64,000 nucleotides of DNA from Cupriavidus taiwanensis LMG 19424. Lineage in GTDB: Bacteria; Pseudomonadota; Gammaproteobacteria; Burkholderiales; Burkholderiaceae. This document shows positions 25,021-46,572 of this stretch, piece after piece (position 1 is the stretch's first letter; each line of letters starts with the position of its first letter). The DNA lies in contig NC_010528.1 in assembly GCF_000069785.1 (NCBI RefSeq), positions 2,604,001 through 2,668,000 on the forward strand. The letters run 5' to 3'. Position numbers and translations under genes: made by a program. The notes under the pieces were generated by a model, which saw only the letters and a program-made list of their open reading frames with translations, was not told the origin of the DNA and did not search any database.

Positions 25021-25105
25021 GCCCGGGTGGTGAAACAGGTAGACGCAGGGGACTCAAAATCCCCCGCCGCAAGGCGTGTCGGTTCGAGTCCGACCCCGGG
25101 CACCA
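25021..25105 (+). tRNA. tRNA-Leu (anticodon CAA)
   Basis: An 85-nt type II tRNA with encoded CCA. The acceptor stem GCCCGGG pairs with CCCGGGC at 25095-25101, the anticodon loop CTCAAAA places CAA as anticodon, the variable arm is long as in all tRNA-Leu, and GGTTCGAGTCC gives the T arm. A possible -10 CATAAT lies about 45 bp upstream. tRNA genes are common integration targets, and the toxin-antitoxin remnants directly downstream fit that, although no direct repeat of the tRNA 3' end was found. Confidence 0.97.
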
Positions 25106-43050: not shown

Positions 43051-44109
43051 ATGGCTTATCAAGTAACCGTCATGCCCAGCGGCCACAAGTTTGAAGTGGC
43101 CGCGGACGAAACCATCCTCGGCGCGGCCCTGCGCCACAGCATCGGGCTGCCCTACGGCTGCAAGAACGGCGCCTGCGGGTCATGCAAGGGCCGCGTGCTC
43201 GAAGGCAGCATCGTGCAGGGCGACCATGCCCCGTCGGCGCTGACCGCCCAGGAAAAGACCGAAGGCCGCGCGCTGTTCTGCTGCGCCAATGCCGCCTCGG
43301 ACATCACCATCGAATGCCGCGAGGTTCACGGCGCGGGCGACATTCCCATCAAGAAGGTGCCGTGCCGCGTGACCTCGCTGGAGCGCCTGGCCGACGATGT
43401 GATCGCGATCAAGCTGCAGCTGCCCGCCACCGAGCGCATGCAGTACCTGGCCGGCCAGTATGTCGAGTTCCTGCTGCGCGACGGCAAGCGCCGCAGCTAT
43501 TCGATCGCCACGCCGCCGCACGAGGACGGCCCGATCGAACTGCATATCCGCCATATGCCGGGCGGCGCCTTCACCGACTACGTGTTCGGCGCGAAGGAAG
43601 GCCAGCCGGCCATGAAGGAGCGCGACATCCTGCGCTTCGAAGGCCCGCTGGGCAGCTTCTTCCTGCGCGAGGAATCCGAAGCGCCGATCATCCTGCTGGC
43701 GTCCGGCACCGGCTTCGCCCCCATCAAGGCCATCGTCGAGCATGCCGCCTACACCGGCATCCAGCGCCCGATGACGCTGTACTGGGGCGGCCGCCGGCCC
43801 AAGGACCTGTACATGCACGCGCTGGCCGAGCAGTGGGCGCGCGACCTGCCCAACTTCAGCTACGTGCCGGTGGTCTCCGACGCGCAGCCGGAAGACAACT
43901 GGCAGGGCCGCACCGGCTTCGTCCATCAGGCGGTGATGGCCGATTTCCCCGACCTGTCGGGCCACGAGGTCTACGCCTGCGGCGCGCCGGTGATGATCAA
44001 CGCCGCGCGCGGCGACTTCACCCGGCAATGCAAGCTGCACGAAGACGCGTTCTTCGCCGACTCGTTCACCTCCGAGGCCGACATGCACGCGGCCCCGCCG
44101 GCGGCCTGA
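43051..44109 (+). CDS. CDP-6-deoxy-delta-3,4-glucoseen reductase-like ferredoxin:NAD oxidoreductase
   Basis: A 352-residue electron-transfer protein. An N-terminal plant-type [2Fe-2S] ferredoxin domain (C-x4-C-x2-C in CKNGACGSCKG near 34-44 and a fourth Cys in CCANAAS near 75) is followed by FAD-binding (RRSYSIATPP near 150) and NAD-binding (LASGTGFAPIKAI near 215) domains. AscD-like proteins reduce a dehydrated CDP-sugar, but most homologues in Burkholderiales have no sugar genes beside them and probably act as general reductases. Divergent from the SDR gene by 9 bp. Confidence 0.88.
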   Translation: MAYQVTVMPSGHKFEVAADETILGAALRHSIGLPYGCKNGACGSCKGRVLEGSIVQGDHAPSALTAQEKTEGRALFCCANAASDITIECREVHGAGDIPIKKVPCRVTSLERLADDVIAIKLQLPATERMQYLAGQYVEFLLRDGKRRSYSIATPPHEDGPIELHIRHMPGGAFTDYVFGAKEGQPAMKERDILRFEGPLGSFFLREESEAPIILLASGTGFAPIKAIVEHAAYTGIQRPMTLYWGGRRPKDLYMHALAEQWARDLPNFSYVPVVSDAQPEDNWQGRTGFVHQAVMADFPDLSGHEVYACGAPVMINAARGDFTRQCKLHEDAFFADSFTSEADMHAAPPAA

Positions 44110-44166
44110 GGCCGCCCGCGCGCCGTTCCGCCAGCGCAACAATGCCCGGGCCCGCCAAAATTCGTT

Positions 44167-44195
44167 TTGACACCCGGGGCCGTGCGCCTTATATT
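44167..44195 (+). promoter_or_regulatory. Strong sigma70-type promoter of the argD leader
   Basis: TTGACA at 44167-44172, a 17-bp spacer and TATATT at 44190-44195, the best promoter match noticed in the window. Predicted transcription start is about 44202, which puts an intrinsic terminator about 100-130 nt downstream and argD about 200 nt downstream. Confidence 0.75.
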
Positions 44196-44202
44196 TGCCC
44201 GC

Positions 44203-44271
44203 ATGCACATGACCTTCAACCGACGCCGCAGCTTCCGTACGTCGCTCCCCGCTGGGGTGCCGCGCGGCTGA
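44203..44271 (+). CDS. Putative arginine-rich leader peptide upstream of argD
   Basis: A 22-codon reading frame from ATG 44203 to TGA 44269-44271. Five of 22 residues are arginine (positions 7, 8, 9, 12 and 21), with three in a row. The ATG lies at the predicted transcript 5' end, so it would be read as a leaderless message; a second ATG two codons later is an alternative. It precedes an intrinsic terminator and argD, an arginine biosynthesis gene. Arg-rich short frames arise by chance in high-GC DNA, so translation is unproven. Confidence 0.4.
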   Translation: MHMTFNRRRSFRTSLPAGVPRG

Positions 44272-44300
44272 CCGTCGACTGCGTCTGTTCATGTCAACGA

Positions 44301-44343
44301 GCCACGGGCAACCCCCGTGGCTTTTTGTTTTTGTTTTTGTTCT
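44301..44343 (+). terminator. Intrinsic terminator in the argD leader
   Basis: An 8-bp GC-rich stem (GCCACGGG at 44301-44308 with CCCGTGGC at 44314-44321) followed by CTTTTTG and repeats of TTTTTG. It lies before argD, not after it. An upstream segment GGGGTGCC (44254-44261) can pair with GGCAACCCC in the stem and loop, an alternative fold that would prevent the terminator. Confidence 0.8.
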
Positions 44344-44400
44344 TGTTGCGTCTTTCGCGCCCGTCCGTCCATCGTTACACGCCGACCCCTGGAGTCCGCC

Positions 44401-45588
44401 ATGGCATTTGCTGAGTATCCCGTCCAATCCCTGATGTACATCACCAACCGCCCCGAACTCGTGTTCACCGAAGGCAAGGGCTCCTGGCTGACGGATCACA
44501 ACGGCAAGCGCTACCTCGACTTCGTGCAGGGCTGGGCGGTGAACTGCCTGGGCCATTCCAACCAGGGCATGATCGACGCGCTGGTGGCCCAGTCGCACAA
44601 GCTGATCAACCCCAGCCCGGCCTTCTACAACGAGCCGATGCTGAAGCTGGCCAAGCAGCTGACCGACCACAGCTGCTTCGACAAGGTCTTCTTCGCCAAC
44701 AGCGGCGCCGAGGCCAACGAGGGCGCGATCAAGCTGGCGCGCAAATGGGGCCGCAAGCACAAGGATGGCGCCTTCGAGATCATCACCATGGACCACAGCT
44801 TCCATGGCCGCACGCTCGCCACCATGAGCGCGTCGGGCAAGGCCGGCTGGGACACCATCTTCGCGCCGCAGGTGCCGGGCTTCCCGCGCGCCGAACTGAA
44901 CGACCTCGCCTCGGTGGAAAAGCTGATCACCGGCAAGACCGTCGGCATCATGCTCGAGCCGGTGCAGGGCGAAGGCGGCGTGATCCCCGCCACGCGCGAA
45001 TTCATGCAGAGCCTGCGCGCGCTGGCCGACAAGCACAAGCTGCTGCTGATCGTCGATGAAGTGCAGGCCGGCTGCGGCCGCTGCGGCACGCTGTTCGCCT
45101 ATGAGCTGGCGGGCGTGGAGCCGGACATCATGACGCTGGGCAAGGGCATCGGCGGCGGCGTGCCGCTGTCGGCGCTGCTGTGCAAGGCCGAGGTCGCCAG
45201 CTTCGAGGCCGGCGACCAGGGCGGCACCTACAACGGCAACCCGCTGATGACCGCGGTCGGCAGCGCCGTGATCGAACAGCTGACCGCGCCCGGCTTCCTG
45301 GACGAGGTCAAGGCCAAGGGCGACTACCTGAAGGAGCAGCTGCTGGCGCTGTCGGCCGAGTTCGGCCTGGGCGGCGAACGCGGCGAAGGCCTGCTGCGCG
45401 CGCTGCTGCTGGGCAAGGACATCGGCCCGCAACTGGTGGAGGAAGCGCGCGACATGGCCCCGCAGGGCCTGCTGCTGAACGCCCCGCGCCCCAACCTGCT
45501 GCGCTTCATGCCGGCGCTGAACGTCACGCGCGAAGAGATCGACCAGATGATCGGCATGCTGCGTACGCTGCTGAAGAAGCTGGCCTGA
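44401..45588 (+). CDS. argD: Acetylornithine aminotransferase
   Basis: A 395-residue PLP-dependent class III aminotransferase that makes N-acetylornithine from N-acetylglutamate semialdehyde in arginine synthesis; family members often also serve lysine synthesis. The PLP lysine is K248 in [12 protein letters not shown], with DEVQAGCGR at 219-227. The start at 44401 follows TGGAGT and is the family N-terminus. The only clear promoter upstream (44167) is separated from the gene by a strong terminator, so expression probably depends on read-through. Confidence 0.93.
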
Positions 45589-45612
45589 TCTTCGCGGGTA
45601 TCCGCGGACAGC

Positions 45613-45645
45613 AAAAAGCCTCGCATTGCGCGAGGCTTTTTGCTT
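45613..45645 (+). terminator. Intrinsic terminator after argD
   Basis: An 11-bp stem (AAAAAGCCTCG at 45613-45623 with CGAGGCTTTTT at 45631-45641) with U-rich tail, 25 bp after the argD stop. Confidence 0.9.
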
Positions 45646-45666
45646 TGCGGCCGGATCCGGGATCCG

Positions 45667-45806
45667 TGCCGCAGAGGAGTGAGGGAGAGGGCCAGCGCCG
45701 CAGAACCGGTGCAGCCGGCCGGAGCCGGCCTGCCCGGGACCCCGCGGCAAGGGGAAAGGCCTTGCGCCTGCGAGCGCCCGCCCTCTCCCTCACCCCTCTT
45801 GCGGCA
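45667..45806. repeat. Intergenic inverted repeat, GGGAGAGGG type, copy 3
   Basis: Arms 45667-45692 and 45780-45806 are reverse complements apart from one mismatch and one inserted base, enclosing about 87 bp. Sequence relation to the units at 6.6 and 12.2 kb is in the CTCTCCC/GGGAGAG core. It lies between convergent argD and livF and resembles a small non-autonomous palindromic element. Confidence 0.7.
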
Positions 45807-45840
45807 GCGGGGTGTCGGAGCCGGAGCGGCGGCGCGCCGC

Positions 45841-46572
45841 TTACTCGCCCAGGTAGGCGGCCCGCACCTTGGGATCGTCCAGCATCTGGCTGGCCTCCCC
45901 GCTCATGGTGATCAGGCCGGACTCCATCACGTAGCCCCGGTGCGCGGCCTGCAGCGCCAGGCGCGCGTTCTGCTCGACCAGCAGCACGGTCACGCCCTGC
46001 GCCGAGATGTCGCGCACGACCTCGAAGATCTTCTCCACCATGATCGGCGACAGGCCCATCGACGGCTCGTCCAGCAGCAGCACCTTGGGCTGGCTCATCA
46101 GCGCGCGCGCCATCGCCAGCATCTGCTGCTCGCCGCCGGACATGGTGCCTGCCAGCTGGTTGGCGCGCTCCTTCAGTCGCGGAAAGATGCCGAACATGCG
46201 CTCGACGTCGGCCTTGATGCCGGCGTCGTCGTTGCGCGTGTAGGCGCCCATCTGCAGGTTCTCGGTGATGGTCATGCGCGCGAACACGCCGCGGCCTTCC
46301 GGCACCATCGCCAGGCCCTGCTTGAGCAGCGCGTAGCTGGGCACGCCCTTGATCGACTTGCCCATGTATTCCACGTCGCCGCCGGCCCAGCCCTGCAGGC
46401 CGGTGATGGCCTTCATGGTGGTGGTCTTGCCGGCGCCGTTGGCGCCGATCAGCGTGACCAGTTCGCCGTCGCGGATTTCCAGGTCGATGCCCTTGACGGC
46501 CTGGATGCCGCCGTAGGCAACCTTCAGGCCGGAGATCTTCAGTACTGTCTGTTTCATTGCAGGCTGATTCAT
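45841..46572 (-). CDS. livF: Branched-chain amino acid ABC transporter ATP-binding protein LivF
   Basis: A 243-residue ATPase with Walker A GANGAGKTT near 43-51, signature MSGGEQQML near 140 and Walker B VLLLDEPSMGLSP near 160. LivF and LivG form the ATPase pair of the high-affinity branched-chain amino acid importer. The start at 46572 (MNQPAMKQTV) has a GGGAG site 8 bases upstream; an alternative at 46590 overlaps the livG stop as TGATG and would add six residues by coupled translation. Last gene of the liv operon. Confidence 0.95.
   Translation of the reverse strand: MNQPAMKQTVLKISGLKVAYGGIQAVKGIDLEIRDGELVTLIGANGAGKTTTMKAITGLQGWAGGDVEYMGKSIKGVPSYALLKQGLAMVPEGRGVFARMTITENLQMGAYTRNDDAGIKADVERMFGIFPRLKERANQLAGTMSGGEQQMLAMARALMSQPKVLLLDEPSMGLSPIMVEKIFEVVRDISAQGVTVLLVEQNARLALQAAHRGYVMESGLITMSGEASQMLDDPKVRAAYLGE

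Follow-up and report, generated by a model that had tools for sequence, protein, structure and literature searches.

A candidate arginine-responsive transcription attenuator with a leaderless leader frame upstream of argD in Cupriavidus taiwanensis and other Burkholderiales

Here, we present a comparative sequence analysis of the region upstream of argD in Cupriavidus taiwanensis LMG 19424. The analysis follows up a first-pass annotation of a 64,000-nt stretch of this genome (hereafter, the window; contig NC_010528.1, positions 2,604,001 to 2,668,000), in which a promoter, an Arg-rich frame, and a terminator in front of argD had been read as a candidate attenuator with the logic of classical amino acid attenuators. 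The observation was confirmed, and the attenuator reading is well supported at the level of sequence: we propose, with a probability of roughly 0.86, that transcription of argD is controlled by ribosome-mediated attenuation in response to arginine, through a leader frame that is itself leaderless. The anatomy of the locus, a conserved Arg run, and the co-variation of the antiterminator strand with the terminator carry this proposal and support the parallel with the classical systems. An arginine leader on argD had been noted as not being a standard textbook case; the attenuator reading of this case stood, but its scope is order-wide and it is no single case.

Anatomy of the argD leader and its conservation in the genus

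The features of the locus are listed in Table 1. The promoter described earlier is present, and a sigma-70 consensus scan of both strands of 43500-46000 found no second promoter-like site (shuffles, mean 0.1), in agreement with the earlier remark that argD has no other obvious promoter; the promoter sequence aligns across the genus. The leader frame also reads as claimed, with five Arg residues, three of them consecutive, and its ATG lies 7 nt beyond the −10 box. We infer that the transcript starts at this ATG or within 1-2 nt of it. The terminator in front of argD has a G+C-rich stem, the 5' arm of which (44300-44310) is the partner of the antiterminator strand. A terminator-like site by itself is no rarer than chance (1 in the scan versus a mean of 1.5 in shuffles); thus, the evidential weight of the terminator comes from its conservation and not from its rarity in a consensus scan. 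The argD product scored 785 bits against the NCBIfam equivalog NF002985 (cut-off 568). In an Rfam search of the window at gathering score, the leader matched no family, the T-box family included, and the only match was a tRNA (25021-25102). Because no Rfam family matched, many genomes of the order probably lack an annotation of the element.

Table 1. Features of the argD leader region, with positions in the window
Feature	Positions	Strand	Details	Basis
Promoter	44167-44172 (TTGACA); 44190-44195 (TATATT)	+	17-nt spacer	consensus scan, 11/12 matches
Leader frame	44203-44271	+	MHMTFNRRRSFRTSLPAGVPRG, 22 codons, UGA stop at 44269-44271	
Arg run, proposed stall site	44221-44229	+	CGA-CGC-CGC, codons 7-9	run kept between genera
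Predicted protector hairpin	44240-44264	+	−12.3 kcal/mol	RNAalifold genus consensus
Predicted antiterminator strand	44258-44269	+	UGCC-G-CG-C-GGCU, bulge 44262	pairing, energy, invariance, cross-family co-variation
Intrinsic terminator	44299-~44343	+	10-bp stem 44299-44308/44314-44323, loop 44309-44313, T-rich tail	
argD, acetylornithine transaminase, regulated gene in the proposal	44401-45588	+		NCBIfam NF002985

In a DNA search of 40 genomes, including the genome of origin, 24 gave a match. One of these matches lies outside the genus, spans 21 bases, and is put down to chance; the others are from the genus, where 23 of 24 genomes matched and the sole exception (G012) is 54% complete. In all 23 same-genus leaders, the ATG is located 7 nt past the −10 box, the frame is open, and the terminator stem is present. 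Thereby, both the frame and the terminator, whose lack of conservation had been named as grounds for abandoning the attenuator, are conserved, as is the spacing that had placed the ATG at the predicted transcript end. The frames comprise 21 or 22 codons with RR or RRR, and the alignment gaps within them are three-base gaps across the genus. The distance from the terminator to argD varies from 41 to 101 nt, and in some same-genus relatives the stem ends just 47 nt upstream of the argD ATG. GTGCCnCGCGGCT is invariant in the genus except for n, which is base 44262, i.e., the bulge of the antiterminator and also the wobble position of a Pro codon; we attribute this invariance to the pairing of the antiterminator strand with the terminator 5' arm, in which n is bulged. 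The end of the leader peptide, VPRG, is invariant as well, and this constancy is best read as an RNA constraint from the pairing. Among the 27 pairs of the fold, none had changed on both sides inside the genus.

Spread of the element and codon choice in the Arg run

A covariance model built from the genus alignment was searched in 299 family genomes and matched 116 of them, representing 8 of 25 genera, with the weakest matches near an E value of 0.01. From these, 40 loci were retrieved; 35 carry argD and the leader precedes argD in each, while the five loci lacking argD (L078, L079, L080, L083, and L093) were dropped. In the window, further matches to the model were not accepted as leaders; the next best after the leader, with E values of 0.0027 and 0.015, are weak and fall on a second intrinsic-terminator-like hairpin located right after argD (45613-45645).

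argD was sought across the order at two cut-offs: E ≤ 1e-100 yielded it in 22 of 150 genomes, and E ≤ 1e-80 in 118 of 399. About half of the 118 have a more distant ArgD class without a leader in the examined loci. At 18 loci of this class (~40-45% identity; L173-L190), the argD start was placed in 10 and a nearby terminator was found in none. The leader together with the terminator is present in 11 families of the order (f1, f3, f5, f8, f11, f15, f20, f21, f24, f35, and f39). Of 80 named genomes, 65 have the full element, including those of Cupriavidus, Paraburkholderia, Caballeronia, Burkholderia, Trinickia, Mycetohabitans, Undibacterium, Herminiimonas, Collimonas, and Herbaspirillum; two have an RRRR frame without a terminator inside the distance limit, and 13, among them six Polynucleobacter, have neither. 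By ArgD, the seven closest named relatives of the window (90-95% identity) comprise six Cupriavidus and one genome labelled Ralstonia sp., in keeping with a Cupriavidus origin. By scan, neither leader nor terminator was found at argD in L097, L098, L123-L125, and L127 or in the Polynucleobacter loci L250, L254, L255, and L268-L270; in those loci that were read, argD is located close behind the upstream gene, a pattern that would fit either loss of the attenuator or its absence from the outset.

The order set comprises 127 loci, of which 122 have argD and 89 a leader, repeats included (L095 is identical to L001, L117 to L003, and L118 to L018), and distinct sequences were counted where possible. 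The script called no leader at 33 of the 122 argD loci; one of these, L069, has a leader by eye that was passed over owing to the distance limit. The frame choice for L170 is doubtful, and L101 has a terminator-like stem without an Arg frame. Because the leader call for the 122 loci required a frame to have an Arg run of two or at least four Arg, a co-occurrence test with one rule for all loci is fairer. By this rule, 69 of 85 distinct loci with a terminator and an Arg frame have an RRR frame before argD, versus 3 of 33 loci without, and one of these three is the true leader of L069. In 72 of 75 distinct frames, 6-8 nt separate the −10 box from the ATG, arguing that leaderlessness is a conserved property.

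The frames of different genera have little in common beyond the Arg run (compare MHMTFNRRRSFRTSLPAGVPRG in the window with MNQALHLRRRRTLLPPGSRAAVC, MNLIAIASIRRRRTLPQPGCRAARYRLR, MNRIQSELRRRRSPLP (Paraburkholderia), MNTKFNDALRRRITTSGMRSCGRRQP, and MHSLFLRRRRIPQHGRRLCVRRRS). A comparison of the Arg codons with the neighbouring codons had been suggested as a check of the attenuator; between genera, the ends of the peptide vary, while an Arg run of 2-4 codons persists. At least three consecutive Arg residues are present in 98 of 118 distinct frames, compared with a mean of 20.5 and a maximum of 35 when residues were shuffled within each peptide; the other two reading frames of the same leaders have such a run in only 2 and 1 cases. 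In Undibacterium and relatives (L121, L122, L126, L246, L247, L252, L253, L256, and L264), the stretch SSPNI that precedes the Arg run varies unusually little for a leader peptide.

Codon choice in the run is strongly skewed. CGA is the first codon in 112 of 118 distinct Arg runs (44221-44223 in the window), and the argD genes use it for 47 of their 1470 Arg codons; CGG accounts for 2 of 392 codons in the runs versus 128 of 1470 in argD, where the 1470 codons derive from all 89 leader loci, repeats included. CGA, CGC, and CGT are all read by a single inosine-bearing tRNA-Arg, which reads CGA poorly. A tentative extension of the proposal, to which we give clearly less than even odds, is that the leader could be a charging sensor for this one tRNA-Arg species, with a run built from these three codons, CGA as the trigger, and CGG avoided, and could act as a leaderless substitute of the order for ArgR on argD as the arginine control point. 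ArgR (PF01316) was searched for in 60 family genomes and matched in none of them; among 14 control genomes, 9 were positive, including E. coli. A regulon survey (PMC5343134) describes ArgR as strongly conserved among gamma-proteobacteria and as lacking from the remaining classes.

Other arginine genes of the same genome were also inspected. A second candidate Arg leader, a 29-residue Arg-rich frame before argF, was rejected: when eight genomes of the genus and two others of the family were aligned, the frame proved not to be conserved; its ATG sits in a conserved TATGAT resembling a −10 box, and an Arg-rich frame is present at 7 of 59 argF loci screened. The region upstream of argF (L279, G000:C1:2688213-2689121, minus strand; L309-L315) contains inverted repeat arms (AAGGCGGC... 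/ ...GCCGCCTT) with a T-rich stretch behind them, and this element ends right before the ATG. It is shared by the eight same-genus genomes, with a loop that differs greatly in length among them; a conserved frame was not found at this repeat. A scan found no intrinsic terminator before argG, carA, or two argC-like matches, both of which score below the family cut-off. A pattern search of the same genome for other leaderless promoters gave 14 matches versus 9 in the reversed control.

Alternative folds, proposed mechanism, and competing explanations

The earlier proposal of mutually exclusive folds holds in that there is an alternative pairing that co-varies with the terminator; however, the segment assigned to it, 44254-44261, is not the best antiterminator and was replaced by 44258-44269. 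The predicted antiterminator is formed by U44258-C44261, C44263-G44264, and G44266-U44269 on one side and A44300-C44303, C44305-G44306, and G44307-A44310 on the other. The G run at 44254-44257 is instead predicted to pair with 44247-44250 in the protector hairpin, in which 44240-44242, 44244-44245, and 44247-44250 face 44254-44257, 44259-44260, and 44262-44264; this hairpin is predicted to hide part of the antiterminator strand and has no covariation in the genus.

In every leader, a strand downstream of the Arg run can pair with the terminator 5' arm. Considered singly, these pairings are modestly better than those of shuffled sequences (mean z −1.45), and the pairing in the window itself is unexceptional (z −0.69; 19 of 100 shuffles equally good). 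By contrast, when 31 representatives, hand-chosen as about one or more per genus, were compared with permuted combinations of leader and arm, the sum of their own pairings was −471.5 kcal/mol versus −403.1 kcal/mol (sd 12.2), and none of 20,000 permutations reached the observed sum. The same was the case outside f1 (0 of 20,000), while 2 of 20,000 did so without family f24; inside f1, the family of the window, 5892 of 20,000 reached the observed value, the arms being too alike to discriminate. Three control stretches from the same loci gave z values of 0.58, 0.19, and 0.09 in the same test. The co-variation is illustrated by f24, in which the leader CGTGCGGCC faces the arm GGCCGCA in L109 and the arm GGCCACGAG faces the leader CTCGTGCGCC in L113.

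Based on 138 leaders, the antiterminator strand begins a median of 19 nt (range, 10-56) after the end of the Arg run. A modelled ribosome with the second Arg codon in the A site overlapped the strand by more than 30% in none of the 138 leaders, and a modelled ribosome at the stop codon did so in 104. In the remaining 34, the stop codon is located beyond the strand and masking at the stop, therefore, cannot be the off-state; in these leaders, argD could be shut off only if the protector hairpin formed anew in the wake of the ribosome.

Folding of the window's leader was also predicted with a modelled ribosome. As long as the terminator 3' arm is unmade, an A site at 44224 or 44227 gives as the lowest-energy fold the antiterminator beside a CCCC/GGGG hairpin (−25.1 kcal/mol); for an A site at 44221, the terminator 5' arm is occupied as well, but by a partly different pairing. 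The upstream region is predicted to fold on itself if no ribosome is present, whereas a ribosome at the stop codon leaves the terminator as the sole remaining fold (−18.5 kcal/mol). In all ribosome states tried, the terminator has the lowest energy as soon as its 3' arm is available, which argues that the switch must be kinetic. The leader with the terminator folds better than shuffles (z −2.16); the leader without the terminator does not (z +1.23).

We suggest the following model. Transcription would begin at or beside the leader ATG, and a ribosome would load on the leaderless message. If Arg-tRNA is ample, the ribosome would clear CGA-CGC-CGC, reach the UGA, and cover the antiterminator strand; the terminator would then form and transcription would end near 44343. 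If Arg-tRNA is scarce, the ribosome would stall on the Arg run, its leading edge would disturb the protector hairpin, and the free antiterminator strand could pair with the terminator 5' arm before the 3' arm is made, allowing the polymerase to enter argD. In the case of no translation, the protector hairpin would form and the terminator would prevail.

Three other explanations were weighed against this model. In fungal AAP and bacterial SpeFL, a peptide mediates stalling inside the ribosome exit tunnel, and the leader peptide could similarly stall the ribosome together with free arginine or ornithine rather than through a shortage of Arg-tRNA. The VPRG end that is invariant in the genus would fit this idea; however, this end is not conserved between genera, where the Arg run alone is shared and the peptide conservation of the AAP/SpeFL type is lacking. 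Moreover, the invariance also fits RNA pairing, only the bulged base at the Pro wobble position being variable, and the codon bias of the run points to codons over residues, making peptide arrest very unlikely. We consider it just as improbable that the element is a general sensor of translation speed, in which ribosomes are slowed, regardless of the amino acid supply, by a rare CGA with further Arg codons behind it, and the leader reports on overall translation or on one tRNA instead of arginine. CGA is indeed rare in argD and yet opens nearly all runs; in 11 families, however, the run encodes the very amino acid that the regulated pathway yields as its end product, which would be needless for a general sensor.

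The first-pass annotation had also considered that the product is a stand-alone small RNA; with a length of ~140 nt, it would act in trans and argD would be transcribed from elsewhere. The promoter and terminator are self-contained, the leader folds with its terminator better than shuffles, and short transcripts from attenuated 5' UTRs are reported for B. cenocepacia (PMC5688073), all of which would be compatible with such an RNA. As the main function, it is nevertheless disfavoured and, if anything, slightly less probable than the two preceding explanations: argD has no other promoter-like site in front of it in 43500-46000, the stem ends close to argD in some same-genus relatives, the element stays with argD in all 35 retrieved family loci that carry the gene, and between genera only the Arg run and the pairing strands are conserved. 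A role in trans alongside attenuation may exist.

Relationship to known regulatory systems

Leader-peptide transcription attenuators are known for the trp, his, leu, ilv, thr, and phe operons. As in these, the argD leader combines a short frame at the (predicted) transcript start, a run of codons for the end product, and an intrinsic terminator before a biosynthetic gene with a predicted antiterminator that competes with the terminator and a predicted protector hairpin. It differs from them in its amino acid, arginine, in its target, argD, in the leaderless frame, and in a run that nearly always starts with CGA and avoids CGG. The his, thr, and phe attenuators are named in PMC1262725, which lists arginine among the amino acids regulated in other species by T-boxes and not by attenuators.

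Arginine-sensing leader frames have been described in other contexts. In Salmonella orf34-speF (PMC6386406), a leader frame also has consecutive Arg codons and the arginine-dependent rate of translation decides the fold of the RNA; in contrast to the argD leader, the excerpted report describes two Arg codons, Rho-dependent termination, and decay by RNase G, reports no intrinsic terminator, and has as its target ornithine decarboxylase, a polyamine gene. Similarly, S. aureus rbfL-rbf (PMC13009471) is reported to have a frame with Arg codons that senses arginine shortage via ribosome pausing, but this system blocks translation of a biofilm regulator, uses AGA/AGG codons, and has an ordinary ribosome-binding site. 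The carA (SRC-12-1) motif of beta-proteobacteria (PMC8632094) is a structured leader of an arginine/pyrimidine synthesis gene in the same bacterial group; according to its excerpted description, it is an extended hairpin found mostly in Polynucleobacter, and an Arg-rich frame is not mentioned there. Elsewhere, the same control problem is solved by the repressor ArgR, i.e., by a DNA-binding protein. As for leaderless frames, 72 genes of B. cenocepacia have a mapped transcript start exactly at the start codon (PMC4603805). In addition, 82 short 5' UTRs are reported for B. cenocepacia (PMC5688073), and these may include the argD leader.

None of the literature matches listed describes an arginine attenuator on argD. 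As far as these matches reach, the kind of regulation is known, while the amino acid, the target, the leaderless frame, and the CGA-first signature are new. With no ArgR found in 60 family genomes, the attenuator offers a specific, testable answer to how arginine synthesis could be controlled. Moreover, the element would be a natural system for dissecting how a leader frame without a 5' leader, a run opened by a rare codon, and a defined antiterminator work, and, if our proposal is true, arginine joins the amino acids with a leader-peptide transcription attenuator.
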